DNA from: an uncultured Lachnospiraceae bacterium
GTDB lineage: Bacteria; Bacillota; Clostridia; Lachnospirales; Lachnospiraceae
Reading direction: 5' to 3'
Assembly: GCA_946405625.1 (NCBI GenBank)
Contig: CAMJHQ010000035.1
Span: 1-33,734 of the forward strand
Length of the DNA: 33,734 nt
Part shown: piece after piece, positions 4,555 through 27,438 of the stretch
How the letters are laid out: the number at the start of each line of letters is the position of its first letter
How positions within the stretch are numbered: the first letter of the stretch is position 1
Made by a program: the position numbers and the translations under genes
Notes under the pieces: model-generated
What the model was told of the DNA's origin: nothing
The model's input: the letters and a program-made list of their open reading frames with translations, nothing else
Database searches by the model: none

Positions 4555-5289
4555 ATGAGTACATATATAATGAGCGACATTCATGGAAGCTCCAAAAGAT
4601 TCTATGAAATGCTAAAGCTTATACAGATAGACTGGTCAAAGGATTATCTGTATATCAACGGTGACATAGTGGACAGAGGAAAAGATTCCCTAAAGCTATT
4701 CTATGAGATCCTTGAAATGAAGAAGAAGCACGGTGATCATATAGTGATCATAAAGGGTAATCATGAGCTATTTATAGATTATTATCTGTCGGGATATCTG
4801 CCGGAAAATCTATATTCTTCATTTGGCGGAAAGGATACTATCCGGGAGCTTACGGCACTGGATTATGCCAGAAAAAAGGAATTGATCGAAATAATAAGAA
4901 ATCTGCCTGTATATAAAGAAATCATATCCCCTGTTCGAGGGGATATGATTATTGTACATTCAGGGCTTCATGAAGATCATATAGTGAAAAATGTGGACGA
5001 TTCCATAAATGTGATCGAGTCTATAGAATCAGCTCTCAGACGTGATGAATATGAATATCTTATAAGCGGATATTTGCAGTATGATGCACCTGCATGGATT
5101 ACAAAAGGAATTGATAAGGTCATGTGTGTAGGCCATGTTCCGACAATGTATCTGCCTGATATTCAGGCTCCTGTCATATGCATGAAGAGCGGTGGAAAAG
5201 TCATAATGACAGACTGTGGAGCAGGCCATCCCGGTGGACGTTTGGGATGTATAAGATTAGAGGATGAGAAGCTCTTCTATGTGGAGTAA
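4555..5289 (+). CDS. PPP-type metallophosphoesterase (serine/threonine phosphatase-like)
   Basis: 244 aa. The metal-binding motifs of the calcineurin-like fold are in order: SDIHG (D8, H10), NGDIVDRG (D37, D40, R41), KGNHE (N69, H70), then VHSGLH and GHVP as the later histidine ligands. GDxVDRG and GNHE place it with PPP phosphatases such as PrpA/lambda phosphatase and ApaH relatives, so likely substrates are phosphoproteins or dinucleoside polyphosphates. It starts 15 nt after the acidic membrane protein, with GGAGGAA as ribosome site, so the two are probably one operon. The gene contains a perfect 13-bp inverted repeat (4920-4950), reported separately. Confidence 0.9.
   Translation: MSTYIMSDIHGSSKRFYEMLKLIQIDWSKDYLYINGDIVDRGKDSLKLFYEILEMKKKHGDHIVIIKGNHELFIDYYLSGYLPENLYSSFGGKDTIRELTALDYARKKELIEIIRNLPVYKEIISPVRGDMIIVHSGLHEDHIVKNVDDSINVIESIESALRRDEYEYLISGYLQYDAPAWITKGIDKVMCVGHVPTMYLPDIQAPVICMKSGGKVIMTDCGAGHPGGRLGCIRLEDEKLFYVE
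4920..4950. repeat. Perfect 13-bp inverted repeat inside the phosphoesterase gene
   Basis: Arms AATCATATCCCCT (4920-4932) and AGGGGATATGATT (4938-4950) flank a 5-nt loop GTTCG. The coded peptide (EIISPVRGDMIIVHSG) is still normal for the family, so the palindrome is accommodated by synonymous choice. Confidence 0.8.
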
Positions 5290-6349: not shown

Positions 6350-6479
6350 GTTATTAGCATGAAATCCGGTAGTTTAACGTATAAAAAAACTTCACGGAAC
6401 ACACATGTCCTAAAAATGTCTCATTTACCCGTATATGATAGCATTGTAAGATAATCGGATGTGTGACAGGAGGCAGAGC

Positions 6480-6971
6480 ATGAAACTGATCTTTTTAGAT
6501 ATTGATGGTGTATTAAATACCTGTGAAACAGCTGCCAGAACGCCGAGCGGAAATACAGGAATTGAGGATAAACTTGTACAAAAACTGGCACATATTGTTG
6601 GAGAAACGGATGCAAAGATCATTCTTACGAGTGATTGGAAGATTGAATGGGAGGAGTTCGAATTCTGCTGCTCTGAAGATGCAAAGTATCTTAATCGAAA
6701 ACTTAAAAAACAGGGAATCAAGATTACATCTAAAACCTATGATGAGCATGTATATGATACTTACTTTGAGGACAGGGGGAAGGGAATCCATAAGTTCCTG
6801 AACAAGATTCAGAATCTTGAAACTTATGTAGTTATAGATGACCATACATTTTCAGACTTTGATGAGGAAATCAGAGCACATCTGATCTTAACTGATTATA
6901 GTAAAGGTCTTACGGATGAAAATGCTGAAAAGGCAATAAGTCTGCTGAATACGAATGCGGGAGGTGAATGA
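6480..6971 (+). CDS. HAD-superfamily protein (Swiss Army Knife RNA-repair HAD type)
   Basis: 163 aa. The start at 6480 is chosen over an in-frame ATG 21 nt upstream because AGGAGG (6468-6473) is correctly spaced only for 6480. Motif I FLDIDGVLNT (nucleophile D7, D9), motif II 'IILTSDWK', and motif IV 'YVVIDDHTF' are all visible. The layout (DIDGVL, then S-D-W in place of S/T-W-R, and VIDD) resembles the HAD domain named from Swiss Army Knife RNA-repair proteins, where it is a predicted phosphatase, though other small HAD enzymes are possible. The stop is 1 nt before the start of the AAA ATPase gene, so they are very likely co-translated. Confidence 0.82.
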   Translation: MKLIFLDIDGVLNTCETAARTPSGNTGIEDKLVQKLAHIVGETDAKIILTSDWKIEWEEFEFCCSEDAKYLNRKLKKQGIKITSKTYDEHVYDTYFEDRGKGIHKFLNKIQNLETYVVIDDHTFSDFDEEIRAHLILTDYSKGLTDENAEKAISLLNTNAGGE

Positions 6972-6972
6972 T

Positions 6973-8997
6973 ATGTTATTAGTTAAATGTACAGGTGAAA
7001 TCTTAGATAAAGAGATTATGCAGAAGTTCGCGGAAACCGATCATAGAAAACAAAGAGAACTTGAGCGTAGTATTCAGAAAGTCACTAATATGCAAATCCC
7101 GGAAGGATTACCATTTTACTTTATCGCTGATGAAGATGAGGGAAGTGTAACTATTGGGGCGTTAGTTGACAGGCTTGAAGATCTAGAAAGCGGATTGAGG
7201 AGATTCTTATCATCTTTAAATATTTCTTTAAGCAATATTGAGTATGAAGAAGTAATAATCAGACAGTTCAGAGATATGCTGGATGATGCACATTCTAATC
7301 GTTTTGTTCAAAATGCGAGAAATATATGTAATGAGTATGGAATGGAAGAATTATATGATCTATGGGGCAATGATTATTATGAAAAAATATTAGAAGATGC
7401 AGAAGAAAGACATATTATTTCTAAGGCGGAAAAAATGTATATAGGGAACACACTCGTTCCGGAGATAAAACGTATATATGAAGGTAAGAAGATAAAGAAA
7501 GCGGAAGGGCATCCGGTACACTATATGATACAGGCCAATGATAATGAGTTAAAAGACGAGACAATAAATCTACTGTATCAGGCACTTTATGATAACAAAA
7601 GAATTAACAGTAAGAGAATGACTGTAGTTCATGTCGAGGAAAACAGGGGATTCAGAAGAGGAGATATGCGTTCGAAAATAGAATGCTTCTATAAAGCCGG
7701 GAAAGGTGGAGCTGTAGTTATAGATTACCATGGCGAAGAGGAAGCTGAAGGAGAATATGCAAGTACTCATAGAGATACAATAAAAATGTTATCAGAGATC
7801 ATGAATAAGTATAGTAACAATGTTCTTACAATTTATTGTTTTCCGAAGGAATGCACCAAGATCAAAGGATGGTATTACGAATATCTCGGTGATGTGAGCA
7901 TGGTCGAGTTGAAGGAAGAATTCGTATCCGGCACGGAAGCAAGGAATGTCCTGAGTAAAAAGGCTTCTGAACATCATGTAAGAACTGATAAGGAGCTTAT
8001 GGCACATATCTCGGACGATAATAAATATCTGTTAAGAGATCTGGATAAGGATTTTGATCTTTGGTACCGTAAAAAGCTTAAACGTACAGTGTATCCACAG
8101 TATCAATGTATAGAAACGGCATCGATGAAGAAAAGTACGGAAGCACCTAAGGGGACGGCATATGAAGAACTGAGTAAAATGATAGGTCTTACGAATGCAA
8201 AGAAAGTGATAAATCAGGCACTGGATTATTATAAAGCGCAGAAAGTGTTCAGAGACAGAGGTATAGATCAGGATCATCCATCGATGCATATGGTTTTTAC
8301 AGGAAACCCGGGTACTGCCAAGACGACTGTTGCAAGACTGTTTGCTGATATCATGAAAGATAATGGAATTCTATCTACGGGTAAGCTTGTTGAAGTAGGA
8401 CGAGGAGATCTGGTTGGAAAATATGTCGGTTGGACGGCAACCATAGTTAAAGATCGATTCAATGATGCTAAAGGTGGGGTACTGTTTGTAGATGAGGCGT
8501 ATTCTCTGGTCGATGACAGAAATGGAATGTTTGGTGATGAAGCAATAAACACCATTGTGCAGGAAATGGAAAATCATAGAGATGAGGTCGTGGTCATATT
8601 CGCCGGTTATCCGGATAAGATGGAAGAATTCTTGGATAAGAATCCGGGACTTCGCTCGAGAATAGCATTTCACGTTTCTTTTGATGATTATAATGTTGAG
8701 GAATTATGTGAAATATCGAAGATCTTTGCTGATAAGAAAGGAATGCATTTTACTGACGAAGCAATGGAAAGGCTGAAAGAAGTATTCTTAGTTGCTATAG
8801 AGCAGCCGGATTTCGGTAATGGCCGATATGTGAGAAATGTAATCGAGAAGGCGAGAATGGCACAGTCGACAAGGCTGTTATCTAAGAATATAGATGATAT
8901 AACCAAAGAAGATATCCTGACTTTCTCAGCTGAGGATATAGAGCTTCCGAAAGTGAAAGTAGAAAAGCATTTTAAAATGGGATTTGCTTGTGCGTAA
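6973..8997 (+). CDS. CbbX/SpoVK-type AAA+ ATPase with large N-terminal region
   Basis: 674 aa from the ATG at 6973, chosen because GGGAGGTGA (6959-6967) fits this start and not the ATG at 6955. Residues about 1-200 are helical and unrecognised. Residues about 210-330 contain 'GGAVVIDYHGEEE' and 'VLTIYCFPKEC', which look like Walker-B and sensor-1 strands of a degenerate AAA domain. The active AAA domain covers about 395-640: Walker A GNPGTAKTT, Walker B VLFVDEAYSL, sensor 'VVVIFAGYPDKM', 'NPGLRSRI' arginine finger and 'FGNGRYVRN' sensor 2, all typical of CbbX, SpoVK and EccA. Relatives are remodelling chaperones (Rubisco activase CbbX, sporulation SpoVK, type VII secretion EccA). The Walker A has Ala in place of the usual Gly before Lys. 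The client is unknown; the coupled HAD protein is the obvious candidate partner. Confidence 0.85.
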   Translation: MLLVKCTGEILDKEIMQKFAETDHRKQRELERSIQKVTNMQIPEGLPFYFIADEDEGSVTIGALVDRLEDLESGLRRFLSSLNISLSNIEYEEVIIRQFRDMLDDAHSNRFVQNARNICNEYGMEELYDLWGNDYYEKILEDAEERHIISKAEKMYIGNTLVPEIKRIYEGKKIKKAEGHPVHYMIQANDNELKDETINLLYQALYDNKRINSKRMTVVHVEENRGFRRGDMRSKIECFYKAGKGGAVVIDYHGEEEAEGEYASTHRDTIKMLSEIMNKYSNNVLTIYCFPKECTKIKGWYYEYLGDVSMVELKEEFVSGTEARNVLSKKASEHHVRTDKELMAHISDDNKYLLRDLDKDFDLWYRKKLKRTVYPQYQCIETASMKKSTEAPKGTAYEELSKMIGLTNAKKVINQALDYYKAQKVFRDRGIDQDHPSMHMVFTGNPGTAKTTVARLFADIMKDNGILSTGKLVEVGRGDLVGKYVGWTATIVKDRFNDAKGGVLFVDEAYSLVDDRNGMFGDEAINTIVQEMENHRDEVVVIFAGYPDKMEEFLDKNPGLRSRIAFHVSFDDYNVEELCEISKIFADKKGMHFTDEAMERLKEVFLVAIEQPDFGNGRYVRNVIEKARMAQSTRLLSKNIDDITKEDILTFSAEDIELPKVKVEKHFKMGFACA

Positions 8998-9088: not shown

Positions 9089-10573
9089 ATGGGGAAGAAT
9101 CTTAGCAAATCTAAGTATTGTAAGGGGTTACAATGTCCGAAGATTCTCTGGCTGGATGAGCATCGACCTGAACTCGCATATGTATCCGATAATAAATCGG
9201 TACTTGAGGAAGGTAAAAGGGTCGGTGAACTTGCCAGAGAGTATTTCGGAAGCTGTTCGCTTGTCGAATTCAACTACGATCTTAATGTGATGGTAGAAGA
9301 TACATTTAAGCTGATGAACAGCGGATGCGAGTGCATAGCAGAAGCAAGCTTTCTCTATGACGGCTTGTTTTGTTCGGTTGACATTTTACGAAAATGCGAG
9401 TCTGATTATGATCTTATCGAAGTAAAGAGTTCAACGTCTGTTTCAGAAATTCATATAGAGGATGTAAGTTATCAGTATTATGTCCTTATCAATTCGGGAA
9501 TCCCGATAAATCACGTATATATAATGCATATAAACAATCAATATGTTCGGCAGGGCGAACTTGACTTGCAGAGCCTTTTTGTGATGGAAGAATGCACTGA
9601 TAAAGTGAAAATGAGGCAGGAAAAGATTGAAGATCGGATTGAACAGATAAGAACATTTATCGATACTGAGGATGAACCGGAGAGAGATATAAATATATAC
9701 TGCGAAAATCCTTATAAATGTGCTTATTACAGCTATTGCCACAGAGATATTCCGAAACAGTCTGTATTTGACATAAAAGATTTGAGATTTAAGAGGAAAT
9801 ATGAGCTATATCATCAAGGGATAGTTACATTTAAGGATATCATTGAGAAGCGGCCTAAAATGGGTGCAAAACAGATGGAACAGGTTGAAACAGCATATTA
9901 TCATAAACCGGATGTGATCAATAGAGAAGAAATCAGAGAGTTCATAAATACACTATATTATCCGGTATATCATTTGGATTTTGAAACATTTCAGATGGCA
10001 GTACCTGAATATAACGATTTAAAGCCTTATGAAAAGATTCCATTTCAATATTCACTTCATATAGAGAAGGAGGATGGAACCTTGGAGCATAGAGAGTTTC
10101 TTGGAGAAGAGGGTACGGATCCGCGGAGAAAATTGGCGGAGCAACTCGTAAATGATATCCCTGAAGATTCATGTATTCTTGCATTCAATATGTCTTTTGA
10201 AAAAGGAGTTATTGAAAGACTGGCTGAGATGTATGGCGATTTGGCCGAGCATCTGATGAATATTCATGATCATATATCGGATCTTATGATTCCATTTGAA
10301 AAGAAGAGTTATTATACAGCAGCTATGGAGGGGAGTTATTCCATCAAGTATGTGCTGCCTGCGCTATTTCCGGATGATCCGTCTCTTGATTATCACAACC
10401 TTGAAGGAATCCATCATGGAGGAGAGGCATCGGATGCATTTAAATATATGACAAGATTCACTCCGGAGGAAAGAGCAAAGACCAGAGAGAATCTACTGAA
10501 ATATTGCGGACTTGATACTTACGCAATGGTAAAGGTACTGGAGAAACTTAGGGAAGCAGCAAAGGAGAACTAG
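9089..10573 (+). CDS. DUF2779 nuclease: RecB-like plus DnaQ-like domains
   Basis: 494 aa. Residues about 1-220 look like a Cas4/RecB-type PD-(D/E)XK nuclease: D98 in 'CSVDIL', E111-V-K113 in 'LIEVKSS', and a following Gln/Tyr helix ('YQYYVL'). Cysteines C16, C205, C211 and C217 could hold an Fe-S cluster as in AddB and Cas4. Residues about 290-485 contain DFET (D297, E299) and 'KYCGLDTYAMVKVLEKL', a DnaQ-like exonuclease layout. This combination is the DUF2779 (PF11074) family. Role: processing or degradation of nucleic acid, not assigned to a pathway. The WYL regulator gene starts 3 nt after its stop. Confidence 0.83.
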   Translation: MGKNLSKSKYCKGLQCPKILWLDEHRPELAYVSDNKSVLEEGKRVGELAREYFGSCSLVEFNYDLNVMVEDTFKLMNSGCECIAEASFLYDGLFCSVDILRKCESDYDLIEVKSSTSVSEIHIEDVSYQYYVLINSGIPINHVYIMHINNQYVRQGELDLQSLFVMEECTDKVKMRQEKIEDRIEQIRTFIDTEDEPERDINIYCENPYKCAYYSYCHRDIPKQSVFDIKDLRFKRKYELYHQGIVTFKDIIEKRPKMGAKQMEQVETAYYHKPDVINREEIREFINTLYYPVYHLDFETFQMAVPEYNDLKPYEKIPFQYSLHIEKEDGTLEHREFLGEEGTDPRRKLAEQLVNDIPEDSCILAFNMSFEKGVIERLAEMYGDLAEHLMNIHDHISDLMIPFEKKSYYTAAMEGSYSIKYVLPALFPDDPSLDYHNLEGIHHGGEASDAFKYMTRFTPEERAKTRENLLKYCGLDTYAMVKVLEKLREAAKEN

Positions 10574-10576: not shown

Positions 10577-11668
10577 ATGAGTGTAAGACCACCCAAAAAA
10601 CTTATGATGAATATTCTGGAAATATTGAGACAATATTCTGATGAAAATCATCGACTCAGTCAGAAAGAAATCACTGAGAAGCTTTCTAAAGAATATGATA
10701 TCAAAGCTAATAGAAAAAGTATCCGAAGAAATATAATTAATCTTATTGATTGTGGTTATGATATTGATTATAAGGAAACGATTCGTATGATGCCGGTAAA
10801 AGATAAATCCGGGAAAAATGTGATCGATCCTAAGACAGGAGAGAAAGTCATGGAAGAAAATATCATTTGGTCAGACTTTTATCTTGTGAGGGATTTTACA
10901 GACAATGAACTTCGTCTTTTGATAGATGGTCTGCTCTTTTCCAGGCATATTCCGTATAGCGAATGTAAAGAGCTCGTGGAGAAGATTGAAGGACTGTCCA
11001 GTGAATATTTCAGATCCAGGGTTAAGTACATTTCAACGCTGCCTAATGATAAATCTAATAACAAGGATTTATTTCTGAATATAGAGTTAATAGATGAAGC
11101 AATCAGCAAAAAGAAAAAGATCAGTTTTAAATATCTGGAATATGACACCGATAAGAAAATGCATGTAAAGAAGCGTGAAGACGGAAGTGAAAGGATATAT
11201 CTGGTTTCACCTTATCAAATGGCTGCAAGGGAGGGGAAATACTACCTCATATGTAATTATGACAAATACGATGATATCTCCAATTATCGTTTGGATCGCA
11301 TTACTGATATTGTGATTACTGATGAACCTATAAAGCCATTTAAGAAATTAAAATGGTCAAATAAAGCGGAACTTAATCTGGCAGACTATATGAAGAAGCA
11401 TCCATATATGTATTCAAGTGATGATGTGATGGTATCTTTCAGAGTAGTTCTTCCGATGATCGGTGATGTGATAGATATGTTCGGAACAGATGTCAGGTTC
11501 TCAGATAAAGATGAAACCGGGGTGACAGTATCAACTACCACAAATGAACGTGCCATGGAGCAGTTCGCACTGAACTTCGCACCGGATGTAATGGTACTCA
11601 GACCAGAAAGGCTTAGGAAAAAGATAGTGGAAAAATTGAGGAATGCCGTAGAGGCGTATGAGAAATAA
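10577..11668 (+). CDS. WYL-domain transcriptional regulator
   Basis: 363 aa. Residues about 8-65 form a winged helix ('LSQKEITEKLSKEYDIKANRKSIRRNI'). The WYL domain is at about 170-260, with 'KKISFKYLEYD', 'LVSPYQMAAREGKYYLIC' (the WYL signature position, here YQMAAREGKYYL) and 'SNYRLDRITDI'. The C-terminal WCX extension ends in 'NFAPDVMVLRPERLRKKIVEKL'. WYL proteins sense nucleic acid or nucleotide ligands and often control DNA repair or phage-defence genes. AAGGAG at the end of the DUF2779 gene serves as ribosome site, so nuclease and regulator are one operon. Confidence 0.9.
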   Translation: MSVRPPKKLMMNILEILRQYSDENHRLSQKEITEKLSKEYDIKANRKSIRRNIINLIDCGYDIDYKETIRMMPVKDKSGKNVIDPKTGEKVMEENIIWSDFYLVRDFTDNELRLLIDGLLFSRHIPYSECKELVEKIEGLSSEYFRSRVKYISTLPNDKSNNKDLFLNIELIDEAISKKKKISFKYLEYDTDKKMHVKKREDGSERIYLVSPYQMAAREGKYYLICNYDKYDDISNYRLDRITDIVITDEPIKPFKKLKWSNKAELNLADYMKKHPYMYSSDDVMVSFRVVLPMIGDVIDMFGTDVRFSDKDETGVTVSTTTNERAMEQFALNFAPDVMVLRPERLRKKIVEKLRNAVEAYEK

Positions 11669-12990: not shown

Positions 12991-13713
12991 ATGAATATGG
13001 GAACTTTAGAAGTGTATAGTTTAACTAAAACTGAAAAGAAATCATTTATTGATACGTATGAGCAGTTTTACTTTAATAAAAGTGAATATACCGAAGATGA
13101 GAAAAATGTGTTGGGAATTATTTTGAAAAATAAGTCATCTGATGCTGTTGAGAAATATGCTGAAAATGTCTTGAATAATATAATTCCGCTGGATAAGAGG
13201 GTTTTTTTATGGAAGGCAGGAAGGCTGACTGAAGATGAAGCTGAGCTTATAGAAGCTAATAAAATCAGCCAAATTGAAGTTTTAAATGGAAGAGGCCATA
13301 AGATAGAAAATGCGGAGATATTTATAAATGAGATTAGAAATATGGCGTTAGTAAAGGGGGAAGATAGCTTTAAAGATAACTACAAGAAGTTGCTGGAAAT
13401 ATCAAAACAAGTTGATCTAAAGAATGTCGGAGCGGTCTATTTGATTACTATACTATTCTTTTTGAGCAATAAAGAATACCCTATTTATGATTACTTTGCT
13501 CATAAGGCAGTAAAGGCTTTGTACTTGGATAAGAAACCTAATGAGATTTTTGTAGGGGGAGCACCAGATAAGACGGAATTAGATAAGGTTATTGCCATGT
13601 ACGGAGAGTATGTGTATCTGCTTAATCAAGTATTTGGATATCATAATATAGAGAGAGAATTAGATAGATCATTATGGGTATATGGACATTATAAAAAAGA
13701 AGAATCTAAATAA
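12991..13713 (+). CDS. Unknown ~240-aa protein, copy B
   Basis: 240 aa, paralogue of the product at 11695. Shared in the same order: 'FLWKAGRLT' (copy A 'VAWKAGRLI'), 'LNGRGHKIE' (copy A 'LNGYGKKIK'), 'VYLITILFFLSN', 'YPIYDYFAHKAVKAL', 'KPNEIFVGGAPDK', 'ERELDRSLWVYGH'. The N-terminal 60 residues have diverged completely. Copy B lacks a roughly 15-residue insert that copy A has before the final motif. The leader contains a weak TTGACG-type -35 (12948-12953). The gene ends at a bidirectional terminator. Confidence 0.7.
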   Translation: MNMGTLEVYSLTKTEKKSFIDTYEQFYFNKSEYTEDEKNVLGIILKNKSSDAVEKYAENVLNNIIPLDKRVFLWKAGRLTEDEAELIEANKISQIEVLNGRGHKIENAEIFINEIRNMALVKGEDSFKDNYKKLLEISKQVDLKNVGAVYLITILFFLSNKEYPIYDYFAHKAVKALYLDKKPNEIFVGGAPDKTELDKVIAMYGEYVYLLNQVFGYHNIERELDRSLWVYGHYKKEESK

Positions 13714-13810: not shown

Positions 13811-15325
13811 TTATTTATCTGATTTTTCTAACCCAGCCAGCTCTAATGCCTTAGCAGTAATATTCCAAGGACGGCTGTCTTTAGCGGCTTCTTCAAGCAG
13901 GATAAGGTGATAAGCGTTAAGCATGAGGGATATGTCGATTCGACCTTTCAAATAATTGCTTAAGGCAATAAGAATTCGCTGTTTTCCTGTCAAGGATTCA
14001 GGAGGGCAGTATTCGAAATCCATATAGTTATCATTAGATGTCTCGTTGTAGAGGCTTCCTGTATTGGAATCCTGAAAGTAGCCGTTCATCCACATATCAG
14101 AGAGATCGCGTCCTTTTCTGTCCTTTTTATTGTACCATTCCGGAGCTGAATGATTTAATACCATAGGTCCGCGACATATGCCGGGAGAAGTGTATTTTCC
14201 GGCTATAATATCACCCTTTTTGAATGGCGTCGGGAATGAGAACCACATGAACTCGAAGGAGGTTAGTGTAGTGATATCATTGTCAGGAATATTATAGGTT
14301 TCAATTTCTATGATTTTATATTTGTTATTCAGATATAGCTCCAGATGATTATCATGATCTAATGTCGATACGGAATCTATTTCATTTTTAATTATATGTA
14401 CAGTGAAATCTTTACAATCAGGGATATATTCTTTGCATTCATCTTTGACAGCTTCTAAACATTTGTCATATGTGGAGAAGCAACTGTTATTTGTCGATTT
14501 TTTTGTTTGATCATCAGCCTCAGTATATTCAACTTCATATTTATAAAATGAATTGTCCGGGTTCATGAAGATTTCAATGTATTTCATTTGCGCTTCCATA
14601 TATCGATTTAGGAATGAATGAAGACTGTCTTCCTTTGATTCAGATGTATCGAAGGCCATATCTTTTGTATTATCAATTAAGTATTTCCATTCTTTATGCT
14701 TTTCGTTCAGTGACAGACTCCGACATTGATATATCAGCCAAGAAACTTCAAGCGGAGTGAATTTGTAGGAGATTTCTCGTAAATAATTTCGTATATCCCT
14801 TGAATTAATAAAATAGGTGAACATTATATTATCTGCTTGATCATATAGTTCGCTGCAAAATGTATCAAAATCATATAGTTCTCCGTTTAGTTCAACCTTT
14901 CCATAGTTATTTGTAAGATACTTGGCTTCTTCTAATTCGTTATCAAATATGTGTCCGTTATTTCGAAAATACAGTAAACGGATATCTTTGTAGCATATAT
15001 TGATATAACAATTTTTTAAACCGTATCTATTCGGCTTAAAACCGTAATGGATCCATATATTAGTATCATCGGGATTATAATCCGGAGAATTGGTATTATC
15101 ATTATCTTTTTCTAAATGCAAATTTTTAAATAGCACATGATTAATGTAGTCAATATAATTATCGGCTTCATAGGAATACTTAAGAGGCAACTCGTTTTCA
15201 AGATATTTGTAATATTGCGGGTGATATATATCCTGATCGTCATTATCATAGTCGTTATATAGCGGATTCAGATATATCAAAAAGTCGAAGTTTAGATCCT
15301 CATAATTAGAACTGAATATATGCAT
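13811..15325 (-). CDS. Unknown 504-aa acidic protein, shares domain with the 19074 gene
   Basis: The only reverse-strand gene in the central region. 504 aa; N-terminal ~110 residues are rich in Asn, Asp and Tyr. Residues about 260-420 show an arrangement also seen in the 19074 product: a strand and helix 'CFSTYDKCLEAVKDECKEY', a strand 'FTVHIIK', a long strand before a Phe-rich 'FSFPTPFKKGDIIAG', then a Pro/Gly segment ('SPGICRGPMVL'). The C-terminus 'LKGRIDISLMLNAYHLILLEEAAKDS' is a helical bundle. Ribosome site GGGAGGG lies 7 nt before the ATG. No catalytic motif is recognised. It may be a fast-evolving effector or adaptor, but this is a guess. Confidence 0.7.
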   Translation of the reverse strand: MHIFSSNYEDLNFDFLIYLNPLYNDYDNDDQDIYHPQYYKYLENELPLKYSYEADNYIDYINHVLFKNLHLEKDNDNTNSPDYNPDDTNIWIHYGFKPNRYGLKNCYINICYKDIRLLYFRNNGHIFDNELEEAKYLTNNYGKVELNGELYDFDTFCSELYDQADNIMFTYFINSRDIRNYLREISYKFTPLEVSWLIYQCRSLSLNEKHKEWKYLIDNTKDMAFDTSESKEDSLHSFLNRYMEAQMKYIEIFMNPDNSFYKYEVEYTEADDQTKKSTNNSCFSTYDKCLEAVKDECKEYIPDCKDFTVHIIKNEIDSVSTLDHDNHLELYLNNKYKIIEIETYNIPDNDITTLTSFEFMWFSFPTPFKKGDIIAGKYTSPGICRGPMVLNHSAPEWYNKKDRKGRDLSDMWMNGYFQDSNTGSLYNETSNDNYMDFEYCPPESLTGKQRILIALSNYLKGRIDISLMLNAYHLILLEEAAKDSRPWNITAKALELAGLEKSDK

Positions 15326-15475: not shown

Positions 15476-15556
15476 ATGGGAATTCCTGTGCTCTGGCTGT
15501 TAAATAACGAGGAAGTTGATCCACCTTGGGGAAAAGTGGCAAGGATAGTTGTGTGA
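15476..15556 (+). pseudogene. C-terminal remnant of a VWA-like (COG3864) protein
   Basis: A 26-codon frame from ATG at 15476 to TGA at 15554 encodes MGIPVLWLLNNEEVDPPWGK followed by VARIVV. This matches in my memory the last segment of VWA-like DUF2201 proteins (partner of MoxR-type ATPases), where a PVLW-x-(6-10)-PPWG-x-V ending is typical. No other part of such a gene is present. Its end lies 35 nt before the DnaB-like gene, so it may mark the junction where the DnaB/DnaA-like block was inserted or where a gene was deleted. Confidence 0.5.
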
Positions 15557-15590
15557 GGAATATAGGTATTTATGGAGGAGGATGTCGATA

Positions 15591-16487
15591 ATGACTAATA
15601 GTATTCAATGTGATGTATTGAGAACAAAGGAAACTTTGAAATTTATATTACGTGATCTGGATTGGAAAATGAATAACAAAGGAAAAATGAATGGTTTATC
15701 TACAGGATATACTGAATTGGATAGTATTCTTGGTGGTCTTCATGGTGGGAAACTATACTGCCTGGCGGCTCGTCCTGCGATGGGGAAAACTGCATTTGCG
15801 TTAAACATTTCTCTTCATTCTGCACTTAAATTGAAAAAAGAAACTTTGATTTTTTCTCTTGAAGAAAGTACTCAAATGATACTTGCCAGATTACTTTCGA
15901 TAGATACTATGATAGATTCTTGTGCATTTAAAACAGGAGAATTAACCGATTCTGATTTGGAGAAGGTGGAACATGCTGTTGGTACTATCAGTAGCGCACC
16001 GCTTGTAGTGGTTGATGATAGTTTTAACATAGACGATATAGAAGAAAAGAGTCAGGAGTATTTTAAATATAATAAAGAAGGGTTGATAGTAATAGATTAC
16101 CTTCAGCTTATTTCTGAAGGTAACAAGATTGGATCGGAAAATAGAAAACATATAGGATGTATAGTTCGTAGATTGAGTTTATTAGCTAAAAAGCTAAATA
16201 TTCCGATAATAGTTTTGTCACAAATTTCTCACGCTATGGAAAATCGTAAGAATAAACATCCATTACTATGTGATTTTAGAGAGCTGGATGTAGTTAAATT
16301 TTCAGATGTTGTTTTATTTATTTACAGAGAAGATTATTATAATCCGGATTCAGAGAAACTTGGAATAGCTGAAATAATAGTTGCGAAAAATAATGATGGG
16401 CCATGTGGACTTGTAGAACTTGCTTGGATAGGGAAATGTCAAAAATATGCAAATCTAGTATACAGGAGTCGAATAGAGAGAAAATGA
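15591..16487 (+). CDS. Minimal DnaB-like RecA-fold ATPase, no N-terminal domain
   Basis: 298 aa from ATG 15591, chosen because GGAGGAGG (15574-15581) is properly spaced for it; a typical DnaB is ~440 aa. Only a short N-terminal helix remains before the RecA-fold domain: linker-type 'GLSTGYTELDSILGGL', Walker A ARPAMGKTA (K66), E91 in SLEES, Walker B LIVIDYLQLI (D169), motif H4 'LSQISHAMENRKNKHP' and 'DVVLFIYREDYY'. Missing: the collar and primase-binding N-terminal domain; a shortened loop after 'CDFRE'; and the arginine-finger loop, where DnaB has KQRNGP and this has KNNDGP. ATP binding looks intact, but ring-helicase coupling does not. The stop overlaps the DnaA-like start (ATGA). Confidence 0.85.
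   Translation: MTNSIQCDVLRTKETLKFILRDLDWKMNNKGKMNGLSTGYTELDSILGGLHGGKLYCLAARPAMGKTAFALNISLHSALKLKKETLIFSLEESTQMILARLLSIDTMIDSCAFKTGELTDSDLEKVEHAVGTISSAPLVVVDDSFNIDDIEEKSQEYFKYNKEGLIVIDYLQLISEGNKIGSENRKHIGCIVRRLSLLAKKLNIPIIVLSQISHAMENRKNKHPLLCDFRELDVVKFSDVVLFIYREDYYNPDSEKLGIAEIIVAKNNDGPCGLVELAWIGKCQKYANLVYRSRIERK
16097..16123. repeat. Perfect 10-bp inverted repeat inside the DnaB-like gene
   Basis: TTACCTTCAG (16097-16106) and CTGAAGGTAA (16114-16123) flank a 7-nt loop at the Walker B codons. It could fold in mRNA or be a binding site. Confidence 0.75.
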
Positions 16488-17518
16488 ATAATCTAGATAC
16501 ACTAAATCCGTTATATACATTTGATAACTTTATAACCGGTGAGAATAATAAACAGGCTTACGAATATTGTGTTGCAGTAGCGGAACATCCTGGTCGGAAT
16601 GAATATAATCCAATATTTTTATACGGAGGAACCGGATTAGGAAAAACGCATCTTATGCAAGCAATCGCTCATCATATAAAGAAACATAATCCTGGAATGC
16701 CTTTTATATATATAACTTCAGAAATGTTTGTAAATCAGATGATAGATGCGATTAAAAATAATAAAGAACATGAATTTAAATCAAAATTCAAAAAAATTGA
16801 CCTGTTAATGATTGATGATATTCAGGATATAGTTGGAAGGCAAAGAACGCAGTATGAATTGTTACGTCTAGTAGATTATCTATATGACAATCAAATACAG
16901 ATGATATTTACTTCGGATAGACTTCCAAAAGAGTTCTTTATATTAGATGAATGTCTGAAATCGAGATTTATGTGGGGAATTCCGGTAAGAATTTCATTTC
17001 CGGATTATGATACTCGTTTGAGTATAATTCGAAAGAAAGCTGCGATAAAGGGGTTAGGTAATCTTCAAGATGATATTGTATCTTATTTGGCAGACAATTT
17101 TCCGTATGATATTAGATTGATAGAAGGCATGCTTAATAAAATAGAGTTTTATTGTGACGGAGAAAAGAATACGCTGACAATTGAACAAGTAAGAAGTCTT
17201 TTAGCAGACTTTGTTGTGGAACGACCAAGAATTACACTTGAAATGATAATGTGGGTAGTTTCGGAATACTATGATGTTTCAATTGAAGATATAAGGTCAA
17301 AAAAAAGAAAAGGAAATATAGATCAAGCACGATGCGTAATTATTTATCTTGGACATTTACTTACCAATAAAAGGATATTGGCGATAGGTTATTCCGTAGG
17401 TAGAAGAGATGAACAATTATTATGCAGGACAATTTCTATGCTTGATGAAAAGAGAAACAGTGATGTTAAGTTTAATAAACAACTTGAGGAGATTATTAGG
17501 ATTATCAAGGATAGATAG
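16484..17518 (+). CDS. DnaA-like protein with domains III and IV only
   Basis: 344 aa from ATG 16484 (AGGAG upstream; overlap with the DnaB-like stop). A usual DnaA is ~450 aa; here domains I-II are gone. AAA+ domain, residues about 8-220: Walker A GGTGLGKTH (48-56), Walker B LLMIDDIQD (107-115), sensor 1 TSDR (143-146), box VII 'LKSRFMWGIP' with R161, sensor 2 'DIRLIEGMLNKI' with R211. Domain IV, about 246-344: 'IRSKKRKGNIDQAR' aligns with the basic loop, but the signature that reads DnaA boxes (GRDHTTV) is GRRDEQLL (306-313). So nucleotide switch intact, DNA specificity altered. Domain I, where DnaB binds in E. coli, is absent, which fits a private DnaB-like partner. Could be called a DnaA/Hda relative, but Hda lacks domain IV. 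Confidence 0.88.
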   Translation: MNNLDTLNPLYTFDNFITGENNKQAYEYCVAVAEHPGRNEYNPIFLYGGTGLGKTHLMQAIAHHIKKHNPGMPFIYITSEMFVNQMIDAIKNNKEHEFKSKFKKIDLLMIDDIQDIVGRQRTQYELLRLVDYLYDNQIQMIFTSDRLPKEFFILDECLKSRFMWGIPVRISFPDYDTRLSIIRKKAAIKGLGNLQDDIVSYLADNFPYDIRLIEGMLNKIEFYCDGEKNTLTIEQVRSLLADFVVERPRITLEMIMWVVSEYYDVSIEDIRSKKRKGNIDQARCVIIYLGHLLTNKRILAIGYSVGRRDEQLLCRTISMLDEKRNSDVKFNKQLEEIIRIIKDR

Positions 17519-17548
17519 AATATATTAAAGATGACAGGAGGGAGTGGA

Positions 17549-18652
17549 ATGAATCAATATGGAGAAGCTTGGTTACTTGATAGATCTGGAAATTGCATTG
17601 AGGTGTATGCTCACCCATCAGAATCATTTGAGTTCGACAGTATCGTAGATATAGTTTCAAATTACAGTACCGGACCGGATAAATTCTATTGCAATGATTG
17701 GAAGGATACTAAATCGGAAGTTTCCAAAGAAGCAATACTTGATATATATAATCAAAACTGGTGTAGGGTAAGACTTTGGAAAGATAATAAACTGACATTC
17801 AGAAATGCTTCAACTGATTTTAATTGGCATGGAGCAATAGCTGATTTCTTACGCTCACATCCATATTTAAATACAGCGAAGATAACATTTTCTGATACAT
17901 CTGGAAAGGTTTATTTGAAAGATGTGTCATATAATAACTGCATTTCTTATTGTATGGAATTATTATCAAAGAAGTTTTTGGTTTGTTGTTATTTTGGACA
18001 ATCAGAGGATTTGATAAAAGCAGCAATTGATCGCGCTTATGTTGACATGGCTTCGCATACATTACAATACAATGGATTTAAGGATGATAAGGATGGGATT
18101 AAAGAAAAATGGTGCTGTAGATACAATGCATCTTGCGTGATAGGTGATGGTTTGAGAAATTATCCTTTGAATAATGACACCTTTGATAGCTGGCATAAAT
18201 ATATTATAGATAAAATGAAAAATGTTTACGGGAATCATAATTTGACAGAAGGACAAGCGCAAAAATGGCTTAATATGACAATTAAATATATTTTAGTTTT
18301 TTGTCATTTGTTTGGAAATGATTATGGAAGACTTGACGAAATAAATGTATTCCTGAATGATACCTCAGTTGATGATTATATATGTCCGATCGATTCATAT
18401 GTATTAAAAGGTGCAAATATAGATGATGTTGCTTGGAGTAAACTGGATTCAGGTAATTACGATAAAACATATAATGAAATAAAACAAAAAATTGGATGTC
18501 AGAATAGTTTCCTTTGGGAATTGGAAAACTGGGAAGAATTTGCGAAAAGGATTCAACCGGAAAAGAATAGTTATGCGGAATATTGTGATATTCGAGATAC
18601 ACTCGACAATGTTGTTGAAGAAATTGATAAATCAACTTCAGAGTATTGGTAA
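17549..18652 (+). CDS. Unknown 367-aa protein downstream of the DnaA-like gene
   Basis: Start at 17549 chosen over 17531 since CAGGAGGGA (17534-17542) fits it. Residues about 1-120 form a beta-rich domain with 'EAWLLDRSGNCIEVYAHP' and 'NQNWCRVRLWKDNKLTF', then a helical stretch 'GAIADFLRSHPYL'. The second half is helical with 'LTEGQAQKWLNMTIKYILVF' (about 230-249), a phrase I have seen in several uncharacterised bacterial proteins. No nuclease, ATPase or HTH motif is evident. It lies 30 nt after the DnaA-like stop on the same strand, so co-transcription is likely and it is a prime candidate partner. Confidence 0.72.
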   Translation: MNQYGEAWLLDRSGNCIEVYAHPSESFEFDSIVDIVSNYSTGPDKFYCNDWKDTKSEVSKEAILDIYNQNWCRVRLWKDNKLTFRNASTDFNWHGAIADFLRSHPYLNTAKITFSDTSGKVYLKDVSYNNCISYCMELLSKKFLVCCYFGQSEDLIKAAIDRAYVDMASHTLQYNGFKDDKDGIKEKWCCRYNASCVIGDGLRNYPLNNDTFDSWHKYIIDKMKNVYGNHNLTEGQAQKWLNMTIKYILVFCHLFGNDYGRLDEINVFLNDTSVDDYICPIDSYVLKGANIDDVAWSKLDSGNYDKTYNEIKQKIGCQNSFLWELENWEEFAKRIQPEKNSYAEYCDIRDTLDNVVEEIDKSTSEYW

Positions 18653-20327: not shown

Positions 20328-21374
20328 ATGGCATTAATAGATAAAACATTGTATACAACATTGAAAAAATGGTGTGATCATCATGAAGCTGTCAGACCTA
20401 AAAATCAAAATATTATATTTGTAAACAGCCATGATCGAGAGCTTACAAATACAACAATTAGAAAATCAATGTTTGAATTAATGAAGGAAGACATTTATGG
20501 TGAGGTGTTTATTTCGATATATTCGGCTGATAATTTTTATAAGAATATGCATAAATACTTTTCTCATATTTCTGAACTATATATGAATCCGCCAAATGAC
20601 GGAGATTCTGTGATAGACATTATAAATAATTTACCACCTACCTGTGGATGGATAGTACTTGTCATAGAAGATATTGAAGCATTCTCTGGAGATTCTGGGG
20701 ACTTAAATGAAATGTATGAGGCGATTATAGCATTTGCTTCAAAAAAATCAGATATCATTTTTGTTGGAAAAGAAGATAATAAACAATTCTTTTCCGGATG
20801 TGAAATCGGACTATATAATCAGGAAGAATCTCCGAATAAAGAGAGTGTAATTTATGAAATAAAACAGAAAAAATGTGATGAACTAAATTTTTATTGGAAT
20901 CTTTTATATAAGCAGCTTGAAAACAACTATTTCGATTATTCGGGATTTAAGAATCTGTATAAAGAAACATTGGAGTATATCATTCCGCGAGTGACAAAAC
21001 AGAAGGTTTATCGTAGAGATATTACGCTTATAGAAAATATAGGTGCTATGCGTAATAAAAAACCTAAGGATATTGATGGGTGTAAGCCATGGGAGTTTGA
21101 TGCGGCCCGTCAATTTGCTAACGGACTACATCATTGTATAGAGTATAAAAGTGGTGATAAGGATGATATATCTGCAGAAAGGATAGGAATCGATGTAGTA
21201 GAAGAACATCGGAGAGAATATCATGGCTCGCCTTATATTAGTGAAGCATCTCATTATACTATAGAATTATCTATTGATACTGTATGTGCTGAAATGGATT
21301 TTTTTGCTGAAAGTATATTTAATCTTGCTTATGAAGGAAGAGAAATATACGAGGCATTGAAGAGAGTGAGGTAA
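20328..21374 (+). CDS. Unknown protein with a degenerate DnaA/AAA-like N-terminal half
   Basis: 348 aa. Residues about 25-160 follow the strand order of the DnaA ATPase domain: 'NIIFVNSHDRELTNTTIRKSMFELM' at the place of the P-loop but without GxxxxGK(T/S), 'EVFISIYSADNFYKNMHKYF' like DnaA 'FIYITSEMFVNQM', 'WIVLVIEDIEAFSG' like Walker B, and 'DIIFVGKED' at the sensor 1 position. Residues about 170-348 are a helical domain with 'RQFANGLHHCIEYKSGDKDD' and no recognised fold. So it may be an inactive paralogue of an initiator-type ATPase; this is inference. It follows the terminator at 20196 and has its own ribosome site (GAGAGGAA). Confidence 0.65.
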   Translation: MALIDKTLYTTLKKWCDHHEAVRPKNQNIIFVNSHDRELTNTTIRKSMFELMKEDIYGEVFISIYSADNFYKNMHKYFSHISELYMNPPNDGDSVIDIINNLPPTCGWIVLVIEDIEAFSGDSGDLNEMYEAIIAFASKKSDIIFVGKEDNKQFFSGCEIGLYNQEESPNKESVIYEIKQKKCDELNFYWNLLYKQLENNYFDYSGFKNLYKETLEYIIPRVTKQKVYRRDITLIENIGAMRNKKPKDIDGCKPWEFDAARQFANGLHHCIEYKSGDKDDISAERIGIDVVEEHRREYHGSPYISEASHYTIELSIDTVCAEMDFFAESIFNLAYEGREIYEALKRVR

Positions 21375-21381: not shown

Positions 21382-21474
21382 ATGAAGTTTTTTATAAGCG
21401 GCACAAAGTTTGTAACTAAATCTACAGATAAGAAGTTACTTCCTAAGCCTGTAATTGAAAAGATAGATGCGTGA
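21382..21474 (+). CDS. 30-residue peptide, possible truncated gene
   Basis: ATG at 21382 opens 30 codons (MKFFISGTKFVTKSTDKKLL, then PKPVIEKIDA) to TGA at 21472. It looks like the folded start of a longer protein cut off early. No clear ribosome site. The next gene starts 33 nt downstream. Confidence 0.3.
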   Translation: MKFFISGTKFVTKSTDKKLLPKPVIEKIDA

Positions 21475-21506
21475 TAATTTCTTTGATTTATGGTGGTGAA
21501 ATAGAT

Positions 21507-21920
21507 ATGTTTAAAGGAATCTTTTGGTGCTATGTTATCTGTTTTGATTTTGATATGTATACTCATAATCTGATAACCGTGAAAGTGCATTGTGATGGAG
21601 ATGGAAATCCTTTGGAGAAAGCCGATTTCAGCAGTAAATCAGGAGATAATTTTGTTCATAAAATTGAATGGGATAAGATATCAGAAAATAATAGAAATAA
21701 TCATCCATATAATTACTACCCAAGAGGAAGAGTTGAAATAAATAAAGGAAAGATAAAGATATATGCAAATCCCGTAATAATATGTGACGAAGAAGCCAAA
21801 GGAATGATTGTAAAAACGTTTGAATTGAAGGAACGGGAAAAAGAGATAAAGTGGATTGCAGACAATTCAAAGCATTATCAATATGATATAGACGCTATGA
21901 GTTTAATTAAAGAGGAATAA
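21507..21920 (+). CDS. Small conserved-looking protein (KGIFW type), unknown
   Basis: 137 aa from the ATG at 21507, chosen because GGTGGTGA lies 7 nt upstream; the frame remains open back to a GTG at 21471. It begins 'MFKGIFWCYV' and contains 'HNLITVKVHCDGDGNPLEKADFSSKSGDNFVHKIEW' (split here by context: strand, turn, FSSKSG) and 'YNYYPRGRVEINKGKIKIYANP'. I believe these phrases occur in a widespread uncharacterised family of small proteins in gut Firmicutes, but I cannot name it. It is soluble and beta-rich. Its stop is 3 nt before the RtcB start and its last codons carry that gene's ribosome site. Confidence 0.72.
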   Translation: MFKGIFWCYVICFDFDMYTHNLITVKVHCDGDGNPLEKADFSSKSGDNFVHKIEWDKISENNRNNHPYNYYPRGRVEINKGKIKIYANPVIICDEEAKGMIVKTFELKEREKEIKWIADNSKHYQYDIDAMSLIKEE

Positions 21921-21923: not shown

Positions 21924-23135
21924 ATGGATAGATTTGAAATTAAAGGAAAAGTGAATACGGCTGTCTGCTATGCAAGGGTAGTTGAAAATGATGCAATCGA
22001 ACAGATCAGACGCATGTGTGACTACCCTATGTCTGAAGGGGCGAAGATTAGAATAATGCCCGACGTACATTATGGAAAGGGATGCACCATAGGGACAACG
22101 ATGACTATTACGGATAAGGTAGTTCCTAATATAGTAGGCGTGGATATAGGCTGCGGTATGTATACTGTGAATCTCGGAAAAGGTGATATTGATCTGGAGA
22201 AGGTTGATGAAGCAGCACATTTTATCCCAGCTGGAAGAAATTATTGGGATGGGATAAAAGAAAAGTTTAATATATCCGAACTGAAATGTTACAGGGATTT
22301 GAAGGAAACAAAGCGAATCGAAAAGTCTATGGGAACATTAGGCGGAGGTAATCATTTTATTGAAATTGATAAAGCTCAGGACGGGACGAACTATCTGGTG
22401 ATTCATTCAGGGTCAAGAAATCTGGGCAAGCAGGTTGCTGAATTATATCAAAGGCTTGCGATTAATCTAAACGTTGGGTTTGGAGACTATCTGGATAAAA
22501 AAGAAGAAATTATAAGAACGTATAAAGAACAGGGCAGAAAGGATGAAATAAAGCAAGCTATAGCAGAGCTTCATTTTCATAGACAAAAGGAAAATGATAT
22601 TCCGGATGACCTCTGCTTCCTGTCAGGAAAGTACATGGAAGACTATATACATGATATTAAGAAATGCCAGGCATTTGCGAGAAGGAACAGAGAGAAAATG
22701 GCAGAAATAATACTTGAGAGAACCGGACTTATCGGTGGTGACAGCTTTCATACAGTACATAATTATATTGATACCGAAGAGATGATACTTAGAAAAGGTG
22801 CTATAGCTGCGCATGCGGGAGAGAAGGTTTTGATTCCGATAAATATGAAGGATGGAAGTATTCTTGCTATGGGTAAAGGAAATCCTGAGTGGAACTATTC
22901 TGCACCGCATGGAGCCGGAAGGGTTATGTCCAGAAAGGATGCAAAGAATAACCTGGCGCTTGAGGATTTTCATGAAGCAATGCAAGGAATTTATACAACG
23001 TCTGTAAGCAGATCTACATTGGACGAAGCACCAATGGCTTATAAATCACTGGATGCTATTATTGATGTAATAAGGGAGTCAGTAGATATAATCGAAGTTT
23101 TAAAACCGATTTATAACTTCAAAGCAAGTGAATAG
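21924..23135 (+). CDS. rtcB: RtcB-family RNA ligase
   Basis: 403 aa, matching the shorter RtcB group rather than the ~480-aa archaeal form. Motifs: 'MPDVHYGKGCTIGTTM', 'VGVDIGCGM' with metal ligands D74 and C77, 'GTLGGGNHFIEI' with N143 and H144, 'IHSGSRNLGKQV' with H161, 'VHNYID', and 'APHGAGRVMSR' with H329 as the guanylated histidine. RtcB joins 3'-phosphate or 2',3'-cyclic phosphate ends to 5'-OH using GTP and manganese, repairing cleaved tRNA or rRNA. No RtcA or RtcR is nearby, so regulation is not of the E. coli kind. Co-translation with the KGIFW gene is likely (3-nt gap). Confidence 0.93.
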   Translation: MDRFEIKGKVNTAVCYARVVENDAIEQIRRMCDYPMSEGAKIRIMPDVHYGKGCTIGTTMTITDKVVPNIVGVDIGCGMYTVNLGKGDIDLEKVDEAAHFIPAGRNYWDGIKEKFNISELKCYRDLKETKRIEKSMGTLGGGNHFIEIDKAQDGTNYLVIHSGSRNLGKQVAELYQRLAINLNVGFGDYLDKKEEIIRTYKEQGRKDEIKQAIAELHFHRQKENDIPDDLCFLSGKYMEDYIHDIKKCQAFARRNREKMAEIILERTGLIGGDSFHTVHNYIDTEEMILRKGAIAAHAGEKVLIPINMKDGSILAMGKGNPEWNYSAPHGAGRVMSRKDAKNNLALEDFHEAMQGIYTTSVSRSTLDEAPMAYKSLDAIIDVIRESVDIIEVLKPIYNFKASE

Positions 23136-23249: not shown

Positions 23250-23735
23250 ATGTCGAAGATTGATATTAAACATGCATGTACTTTCACCGGTCACAGACCA
23301 GAAAAAATGAATGCATCGGAAGTAGATGTGAAAACATGGTTGGAAAAAGAGATTAAAAATGCAATTGATGCCGGGTATACGGATTTTATTACCGGTATGC
23401 AGCGTGGTGTTGATCTTTGGGCTGCTGAAATATTGCTTCGCCTAAAAAAAGAAGGACAGAATGTCCGAATCATTGCTGCAGTAGCTTTTGAAGGTATGAA
23501 TAAGGGATGGGATGATTATTGGATGCAGTTATATCTCGAGACCAGAAGAACAGCGTTTGAAGATCATATTATTTCTAATTATCCGGGAAAGGCAGCTTTT
23601 ATTCAGAGAAATGAATGGATGGTCGATCATGCGAGCAGATTGATTGCTGTTTATACGGGAGCACCGGGCGGAACCAAGAAAACAATCGATTATGCCACCA
23701 AGAATGGACTTGAGGTGGTTTGTTATGGAAAGTGA
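23250..23735 (+). CDS. SLOG-family protein (YspA/DUF1273-like)
   Basis: 161 aa. The Rossmann-like SLOG nucleotide-binding elements are visible: 'CTFTGHRPEKM' near the start, 'DFITGMQRGVDLWAAEILLRL' and 'LIAVYTGAPGGTKKTIDYA'. SLOG proteins bind nucleotides or nucleotide-derived messengers; some serve in defence or DNA-uptake contexts (DprA relatives), while the YspA group has no established role. Ribosome site GGAAGGAG. It has its own leader of ~110 nt containing TGTCTCA and a TATAGT box at 23181, and a strong terminator follows. Confidence 0.87.
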   Translation: MSKIDIKHACTFTGHRPEKMNASEVDVKTWLEKEIKNAIDAGYTDFITGMQRGVDLWAAEILLRLKKEGQNVRIIAAVAFEGMNKGWDDYWMQLYLETRRTAFEDHIISNYPGKAAFIQRNEWMVDHASRLIAVYTGAPGGTKKTIDYATKNGLEVVCYGK

Positions 23736-25922: not shown

Positions 25923-26007
25923 AGGATTATTATGAAAAAAAGCTAAAGGATACATAGAAAAACTGTGCAAACTATGATTTATCCGAATATAAAAACCTAT
26001 TATAAAG

Positions 26008-26035
26008 AAGTCCGCCCAAGGGCGGATTTTCTTAT
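26008..26035 (+). terminator. Rho-independent terminator
   Basis: TCCGCC (26011-26016) pairs with GGCGGA (26021-26026), loop CAAG, extended by A-T pairs, then TTTTCTTATTTT. It ends the patatin gene. Confidence 0.85.
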
Positions 26036-26183: not shown

Positions 26184-26203
26184 GAAATGGGGTGACCAAG
26201 CAT

Positions 26204-27437: not shown

Positions 27438-27438
27438 G

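Follow-up and report, generated by a model that had tools for sequence, protein, structure and literature searches.

Islands that combine the RNA ligase RtcB with HAD-domain Swiss Army Knife (SAK) proteins of RNA repair were reportedly described in a survey of 2016. Hda is a DnaA-like AAA+ protein that lacks domain IV and carries an N-terminal clamp-binding motif. In the replicative helicase DnaB, a trans-acting lysine and arginine reach the ATP site of the neighbouring subunit (K440/R442 in E. coli and K444/R446 in H. pylori, as given in the available parts of PMC6391071 and PMC8421360). For E. coli DnaA, the available parts of PMC7561715 name R399, D433, H434, and T435 of domain IV as the residues that read the bases. 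Here, we describe a DnaB-like and a DnaA-like gene that overlap within an RNA-repair island of an uncultured Lachnospiraceae bacterium, at positions 15,591 to 17,518 of a stretch of 33,734 nucleotides (CAMJHQ010000035.1; contig C35 of the host draft genome; the whole stretch is called the window). The draft comprises 3.3 Mb, with a completeness of 97.8% and a contamination of 1.5%. Truncated DnaB, DnaA, and PolC proteins recur in such islands, and the pair is an example of this pattern. Genomes, host contigs, and island loci are designated G, C, and L where a handle is needed, the host being G000.

Two Truncated Replication Proteins

The first gene (15591..16487, forward strand) codes for a 298-aa protein that consists of the DnaB C-terminal domain only. 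The Pfam search proposed by the first-pass annotation of this DNA gave DnaB_C at E 7.2e-70, with positions 1-255 of the 255-position model covered from residue 49 of the 312-residue open reading frame (ORF), and no PF00772 match was found in that ORF, in line with the predicted loss of the N-terminal domain. The ORF (15549-16487, forward) opens at TTG 15549 and contains ATGs at 15582 and 15591, with GGAGGAGG upstream. Walker A, Walker B, and the catalytic Glu are kept. The Arg finger KxR reads KNN, the Lys being retained and the Arg replaced by Asn, and motif H4 has changed from SGxIEQDAD to LDVVKF-SD with the loss of one residue. The Arg is present in all 26 full-length DnaB rows aligned (21 chromosomal-type, 1 plasmid, and 4 phage-labelled) and in none of the 11 aligned island rows that have only DnaB_C, an alignment that left out a DnaB derivative of G439 and a 168-aa frame of G178. 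In seven further divergent phage DnaB proteins, the Arg is kept in six and replaced by Lys in that of Staphylococcus phage 96. Walker A is intact in 5 of the 11 island rows and broken in 6.

The second gene (16484..17518, forward strand) codes for a DnaA domain III and IV protein of 344 aa counted from ATG 16484 (Bac_DnaA E 4.1e-56; Bac_DnaA_C E 1.8e-12). Its ORF extends back to ATG 16403, and ATG 16484 overlaps the DnaB-like stop codon (16485-16487) as ATGA, the overlap of core-domain genes that had been noticed at first. The protein starts at domain III and thus lacks domains I and II, domain I being the one for helicase or DnaD recruitment. The first reading of this protein as cut to its core therefore holds for domains I-II but not for domain IV, which is present. 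Walker A, Walker B, sensor 1, the box VII Arg, and the sensor 2 Arg are all retained; a relative in G029 lacks the box VII Arg. In domain IV, the signature GGKDHATV has become GRRDEQLL, so that the base-reading R and D are kept, while H434 is replaced by Glu and T435 by Gln. The His is found in 19/19 chromosomal DnaA rows, among which the T435 position varies (A, S, T), and Glu stands in its place in both island DnaA-like proteins that have domain IV. The statement that the motifs look intact is correct for Walker A and B of both proteins, but not for the Arg finger and H4 of the DnaB-like protein or the box signature of the DnaA-like protein.

Both genes are additional to the chromosomal ones: the genome has its own DnaB in a 468-aa frame (C12; 44% identity) and its own DnaA in a 502-aa frame (C9; 43% identity). 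No DnaA-box cluster was found in the window, where the only exact TTATNCACA lies at 29866. Near-boxes with at most one mismatch number 53, where ten mononucleotide shuffles gave 56.2 on average, a comparison that leaves room for a differing box.

Separable Partners and Their Origins

Across the 61 genomes of the genus, the host included, only the window genome has both genes. The DnaB-like gene occurs in the window and in G011 (93% identity), which has no DnaA-like gene. The DnaA-like gene occurs in the window and in G029 (58% identity), with an 80-aa scar in G013, and no DnaB-like gene was found in G029, either near the DnaA-like gene or elsewhere in the genome. Aligned with the window, the G011 DNA shows 95% identity over the DnaB-like gene as far as 16454, and the match resumes at 17546: the blastn blocks 15578-16454 and 17546-17973 adjoin L098:8336-9212 and 9275-9702. 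The segment 16455..17545, which bears the DnaA-like gene, is thus absent from G011 and is replaced by 62 bp, which there form the gap between the DnaB-like block and the next gene. Synonymous divergence between these two loci is 0.14-0.34 for the surrounding genes and 1.40 for RtcB, a value so far above the others as to show that blocks have moved independently. An obligate pair was rejected, since each partner stands alone in a sister genome (the DnaB-like gene in G011 and the DnaA-like gene in G029).

The DnaB-like gene has a dN/dS of 0.22 against G011 (287 codons, Fisher p 3e-6) and the DnaA-like gene one of 0.32 against G029 (343 codons, Fisher p 4e-14), each from a single pair. These codon comparisons indicate that both genes are under purifying selection, as judged from one relative each.

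The window and G029 proteins group with the DnaA of their own genus in the DnaA tree (support 99, starred), and the G439 proteins do not; the starred branches require the DnaA-like genes to have arisen at least twice. In a quick DnaB tree, the island rows fall on one side of a branch with support 94, not starred, and after removal of five long rows the same branch has support 76, also not starred. Grouping of the window and G011 DnaB-like proteins with the DnaB of the genus was not rejected (p 0.72). Because of the long branches, the DnaB trees do not settle whether the island copies share one origin.

Recurrence in Related Islands

The island's AAA protein served as the anchor for related loci. 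It has matches at E <= 1e-90 in 12/61 genus and 16/397 family genomes, some of which span the ATPase domain only; loci were taken around the long matches, together with further loci found on the way. The PF03796 search covered 19 genomes, namely G011, brought in by its DnaB-like gene, and 18 others that have a long AAA match. In each of the 19 there is a single full DnaB frame (444-476 aa), together with one match confined to 63-98 model positions in a frame of 453-495 aa, which by size and place appears RadA-like.

Beyond these, 12 DnaB_C frames shorter than 320 aa were found in 10/19 genomes: two each in G000 and G099 and one each in G011, G188, G006, G389, G416, G163, G439, and G178. When the genomes that entered through a DnaA or DnaB match (G000, G011, G013, and G029) are set aside, nine such frames remain in 8/15 genomes, and in seven of these eight the frame lies beside island genes. 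The DnaB_C-only frames of 230-312 aa share much the same domain cut across several genera. As we read the neighbourhoods, 11 of the 12 are accompanied by AAA_lid_6, WYL, RtcB, or other island genes, and five of them directly adjoin an AAA ATPase (G188, C19, two loci of G099, and G178). For the frame of G439, the nearest island gene belongs to the family of the window orphan at 21471, with RtcB and AAA some 15-20 kb away; that of G163 adjoins an ORF that is Macro-like by eye. Six further DnaB_C matches in frames of 330-652 aa (four in G178, one in G439, and one in G213) stand outside this count, and G363 has an additional weak match (local profile E 7e-4).

Extra DnaA-type frames were identified with PF00308 in three genomes: the window genome, G029, and, twice, G439. 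Other PF00308 matches lie in frames of 258-353 aa, taken as helicase loaders or IstB-like by size only, and in a 529-aa frame of G439. No full-length chromosomal DnaA was found in G011, G188, or G424, all of which are less than 90% complete. Strict family-wide scans (397 genomes each) recovered no copy beyond those of the window, at E limits that miss diverged copies such as those of G439, G188, and G416, three members of this family set, and a scan of a genome contig collection gave a single distant DnaA.

In G439, which belongs to another genus, derivatives of DnaB, DnaA, and PolC lie within about 6 kb (L185:13903-19907). PolC is represented there by two truncated PolC-like genes and DnaA by two AAA+ genes that lack domain IV; alongside them are a UPF0227 hydrolase and a DnaB derivative of 121 aa in which the start of the N-terminal domain is fused to the end of the C-terminal domain, without Walker A. 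Truncated PolC-like genes were found in five genomes (G050, G416, G439, G006, and G099), the one in G099 being a fragment of 316 aa at a distance of about 14 kb from the AAA gene there. The catalytic Asp motifs are kept in G050 and G416; the others appear to have lost them or to lack the region. Three of these genes map to L050:4438-8385, L186:5887-9036, and L106:1980-3734, and they lie beside the AAA gene in G050 and near a DnaB_C-only gene in G416. Two other PolC matches are a 506-aa one at the cut end of L099, taken as the chromosomal polymerase, and a 224-aa one of the exonuclease region in L118. In three genomes, a UPF0227/YqiA-type hydrolase is found near genes derived from DnaB or DnaA (L098:5877-7196 in G011, L109:2664-3986 in G363, and L185:16088-16714 in G439). 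The long proteins of G011 and G363 carry a weak C-terminal stretch resembling DnaA Walker B to sensor 1, under the Pfam cut-off.

A Pfam census covered 150 of the 155 listed island ORFs from 16 loci, five having been dropped as likely spurious. It counted DnaB_C 9, DNA_pol3_alpha 4, Bac_DnaA 3, WYL 12, RtcB 5, and KptA 4. Of the 45 families, the 25 listed include no further core family of replication, transcription, or translation.

The Surrounding Island

By Pfam, the pair is surrounded by HAD_SAK_2, AAA/AAA_lid_6, DUF2779/Cas4-like, WYL, RtcB, YpsA-SLOG, and calcineurin-like phosphoesterase genes and by many orphans. RtcB ligase, a HAD_SAK protein, and a regulator stand together in one locus, as in an RNA-repair island, and the set is kept in sister genomes. 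On the forward strand before the pair lie a calcineurin-like phosphoesterase (4555..5289; E 3.4e-15), with homologs in other islands, a HAD_SAK_2 protein (HAD domain in Swiss Army Knife RNA repair proteins; 6459..6971; E 3.2e-26), the AAA plus AAA_lid_6 ATPase that marks the island (6955..8997), which is of the SpoVK/CbbX/EccA type judging from its island homologs and the NCBIfam names of island ORFs, a DUF2779 protein with a Cas4-like nuclease region (9089..10573; E 2.9e-46 and 4.2e-6), and a WYL-domain regulator (10577..11668; E 6.5e-12). A 504-aa orphan (13811..15325, reverse strand) is divergent from the pair and is kept upstream of the DnaB-like gene in G011.

After the pair, again on the forward strand, comes a two-part orphan (17549..18652, ORF from 17531), whose N-terminal part follows the DnaA-like gene in G029 and the DnaB-like gene in G011. 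The next is an orphan present in six island copies (20328..21374), which on weak evidence is probably a Walker-A-less AAA+ protein of the initiator type. It is followed by a small orphan (21471..21920), whose family has a further member in G439, placed between the two DnaA-like genes, by the RtcB RNA ligase (21924..23135; E 5.4e-58), and by a YpsA-type SLOG protein (23250..23735; E 6.8e-20). The right half of the contig, at 25026-28773, encodes a patatin-like phospholipase, a Fic protein, a MarR regulator, and a BAAT-type hydrolase; for this region, tblastn found no match in the eight sister-island stretches compared.

The window orphans at 11695-12426, 12991-13713, and 17531-18652 recur in L038, L036, L098, and L049, more than once per island and either alone or fused. 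Several of these recurring orphans carry motifs near 'QKWINMT.KY' and 'PIDSYIL', and those of the window have no Pfam match over the curated cut-off. Leftover WYL and DUF2779 fragments were seen at gene junctions of sister islands (L038:520-425, L036:10473-10669, and L098:1605-1742), as if recombination between genes shuffled and trimmed the island cassettes. Random variation of the neighbours, raised by the first-pass annotation as a possibility, was found only in part: the order is shuffled and members are gained or lost, but the gene set is conserved across islands. A second island copy in the host genome (contig C19; L048:13223-14527, L048/L049) lies near an ORF that reads like a putative tyrosine recombinase. 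It has its own degenerate DnaB_C protein adjoining the AAA gene (L049:9507-10265; Pfam E 4.6e-9), with Walker A lost. A KptA/Tpt1-type gene is split over two frames in the G011 island (L098:3466-4033) and is uninterrupted in G363 (L109:643-1176).

The Pfam scan of the window, for which 30 of the 35 listed genes were submitted, showed no integrase or primase family, as had been noted, and an Rfam scan of the window gave no match at the gathering score. The neighbours are genes of RNA-repair and defence type, which speaks against the proposed episomal role. A pattern scan of viral contigs, which reaches close relatives only, found no relative of the DnaB-like protein, the DnaA-like protein, the 20328 family, or the AAA protein, and all phage and plasmid matches were below 60% identity. 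A copied phage module was rejected on these scans, which were made with single proteins and reach close relatives only, and no close relative came to light that would make the pair a copy of a known phage or plasmid module. Several 'plasmid' records (H2, H5, and H12) are chromosome-sized (2.6-4.8 Mb) and match dnaA, as do several unannotated 'Bacteriophage sp.' faecal scaffolds (H21-H25), and because of both kinds of record the raw match counts in plasmid and phage collections are misleading.

PADLOC models run over the 150 island ORFs matched WYL 12, IetA 10, and Cas4 3 times, and a PtuA-type and an AriA-type ATPase once each. In the window, the AAA protein was matched as IetA and the DUF2779 protein as Cas4, both weakly; the DnaB-like protein had no match, and the DnaA-like protein matched only three models, at E 1e-8 or worse. 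By gene content, the islands thus appear defence-like.

Interpretation

We tentatively favour, with a little less than even confidence, the reading that the pair are derived DnaB and DnaA paralogs, the exchangeable cargo of a WYL/RtcB/HAD-SAK/SpoVK-type AAA island, and that they would act as mimics of the replication machinery. The first proposal that the proteins are repurposed fits the data: firing and box-reading residues are changed, the searches turned up neither a box cluster in the window nor a close copy in phages or plasmids, and similar derivatives are seen again in related islands. The worn copies in these islands suggest recruitment as mimics or regulators and not a working replication system, and the island derivatives are probably decoys or dominant-negative subunits. 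A DnaB C-terminal domain devoid of the N-terminal domain and the Arg finger would offer its loader- or subunit-binding faces without firing the neighbouring subunits. A DnaA protein of domains III and IV could join or cap DnaA filaments without recruiting helicase or reading boxes. The derivatives would act in trans on replication, either as a brake or as bait for phage factors that hijack or block it, and the island may be switched on by RNA damage or infection.

In a wider form that we hold possible and on the whole doubtful, the RNA-repair/defence islands of the family field an arsenal of replisome mimics, repeatedly recruited and exchanged, that bait or poison the replication machinery needed by phages, as a decoy anti-phage layer or a stress brake coupled to RNA repair. 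Its members would be DnaB proteins without the N-terminal domain and mostly without the Arg finger, origin-blind DnaA, and truncated PolC. If true, RNA damage sensing would be linked to the control or protection of DNA replication, and the islands would provide a bacterial case of mimics of self proteins recruited repeatedly, perhaps for conflict. The analysis gives a concrete candidate set across several genera and a residue signature (the DnaB C-terminal domain without the Arg finger) for finding more.

A number of observations weigh against the mimic reading. Action on the replisome is something that we infer from sequence. The phage 96 DnaB has Lys at the Arg finger, as does G188, so loss of the Arg alone is no proof of inactivity; the G439 deletion derivative retains the finger (KQRNG), and the column is uncertain for the most diverged rows (G006, G389, G363, C19, and G163). 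The G011 DnaB-like protein has a broken Walker A (GKI), the G439 DnaB derivative, missing most of both domains, looks worn, and the 80-aa DnaA scar of G013 is indistinguishable from neutral (dN/dS 0.83, p 0.76). A single clade of the four DnaA-like rows was not rejected (approximately unbiased test, p 0.21). No derivative was found in G292 (a 6 kb contig), G244, G356, or G424, nor in G213 apart from its 330-aa DnaB_C frame. The recurrence counts rest on island-bearing genomes only, the background rate in island-free genomes not being covered, and 5 of the 16 census loci (L036, L098, L185, L186, and L187) were chosen for holding such matches.

Neofunctionalisation away from the replisome is an unlikely alternative, though one with evidence of its own. 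The DnaB_C-only protein would then serve the AAA_lid_6 machine as an ATPase partner of the RecA/KaiC type, or would sense RNA or nucleotides, and the DnaA-like protein would be a similar regulatory AAA+ protein. In five cases (G188, C19, two loci of G099, and G178), such a frame does directly adjoin an AAA_lid_6-type ATPase, and the branches are long. The window gene, however, is about 6.6 kb from its AAA gene, and islands of this kind also hold DnaA and PolC derivatives, which favours a replisome theme. Walker A can be counted either way, being intact in 5/11 and broken in 6/11.

Improbable, too, is that recombination-prone islands merely capture pieces of host, plasmid, or phage replication genes that then decay without a role. 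The scars and partial genes of G013 and G439, the leftover WYL and DUF2779 fragments, and the broken Walker A of G011 are what such debris would look like. Decay is hard to reconcile with dN/dS values of 0.22 (Fisher p 3e-6) and 0.32 (Fisher p 4e-14), each of them from a single pair, with frames of 230-312 aa that have much the same domain cut in several genera, or with a census in which no other core family is prominent.

That the pair is a functional module of a plasmid, phage, or integrated element, either a minimal replicon or an initiator-loader unit, we regard as very improbable. The genes adjoin, and a Butyrivibrio plasmid groups PolC, DnaB, an ATPase, and a replication initiation protein; against this, the partners are separable, the viral-contig scan showed no relative, and phage and plasmid matches stay below 60% identity. 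An ordinary replicon was rejected given the altered Arg finger and DnaA-box residues, the lack of a DnaA-box cluster, and the failure to find a close mobile relative. The coupled switch of the first-pass annotation, a two-protein device in which the DnaA-like protein senses and loads the DnaB-like one, is scarcely credible: the ATGA coupling in the window and the renewed closeness of DnaA-like genes and a DnaB derivative in G439 would suit it, but each partner lacks the other in a sister genome (G011 and G029), the DnaA-like protein has no domain I, the DnaB-like protein has neither N-terminal domain nor Arg finger, and the G439 DnaB derivative has no Walker A.

Comparison with Described Systems

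Set beside the DnaB replicative helicase (DnaB_C, TIGR00665), the DnaB-like protein of the window shares an end-to-end RecA-type C-terminal domain, Walker A and B, and the H1a catalytic Glu, but it differs in lacking the N-terminal domain, in having KNN for KxR, and in its altered H4. The DnaA-like protein shares with the DnaA initiator the AAA+ motifs of domain III and a recognisable domain IV; it differs from it by the absence of domains I-II, by a Glu for the box-reading His, and by the lack of a box cluster in the window. Unlike Hda, it has domain IV, and its N-terminus (MNNLDTLNPLYTFDNF) has by eye no clamp-binding motif. With the DnaA-targeting inhibitors SirA and prophage YfdR it would share an action on initiation through DnaA, although these are not presented as DnaA derivatives in the available parts of their sources.

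The Butyrivibrio proteoclasticus plasmid pCY186 likewise combines PolC, DnaB, and an ATP-binding protein, but its PolC (1490 aa) and DnaB (449 aa) have their catalytic motifs intact. Among the publications listed in the literature searched, which include the available parts of PMC9503650, none treats DnaB, DnaA, or PolC derivatives of RNA-repair islands; the 2016 survey lies outside this set, so that absence from print is not shown. With the RtcB/HAD Swiss Army Knife RNA-repair islands, the present locus has in common RtcB, HAD_SAK_2, WYL, SLOG, and phosphoesterase genes, as well as KptA in sister islands, whereas what sets it and its relatives apart, as far as the listed publications go, is the recurrence of truncated DnaB, DnaA, and PolC as cargo.

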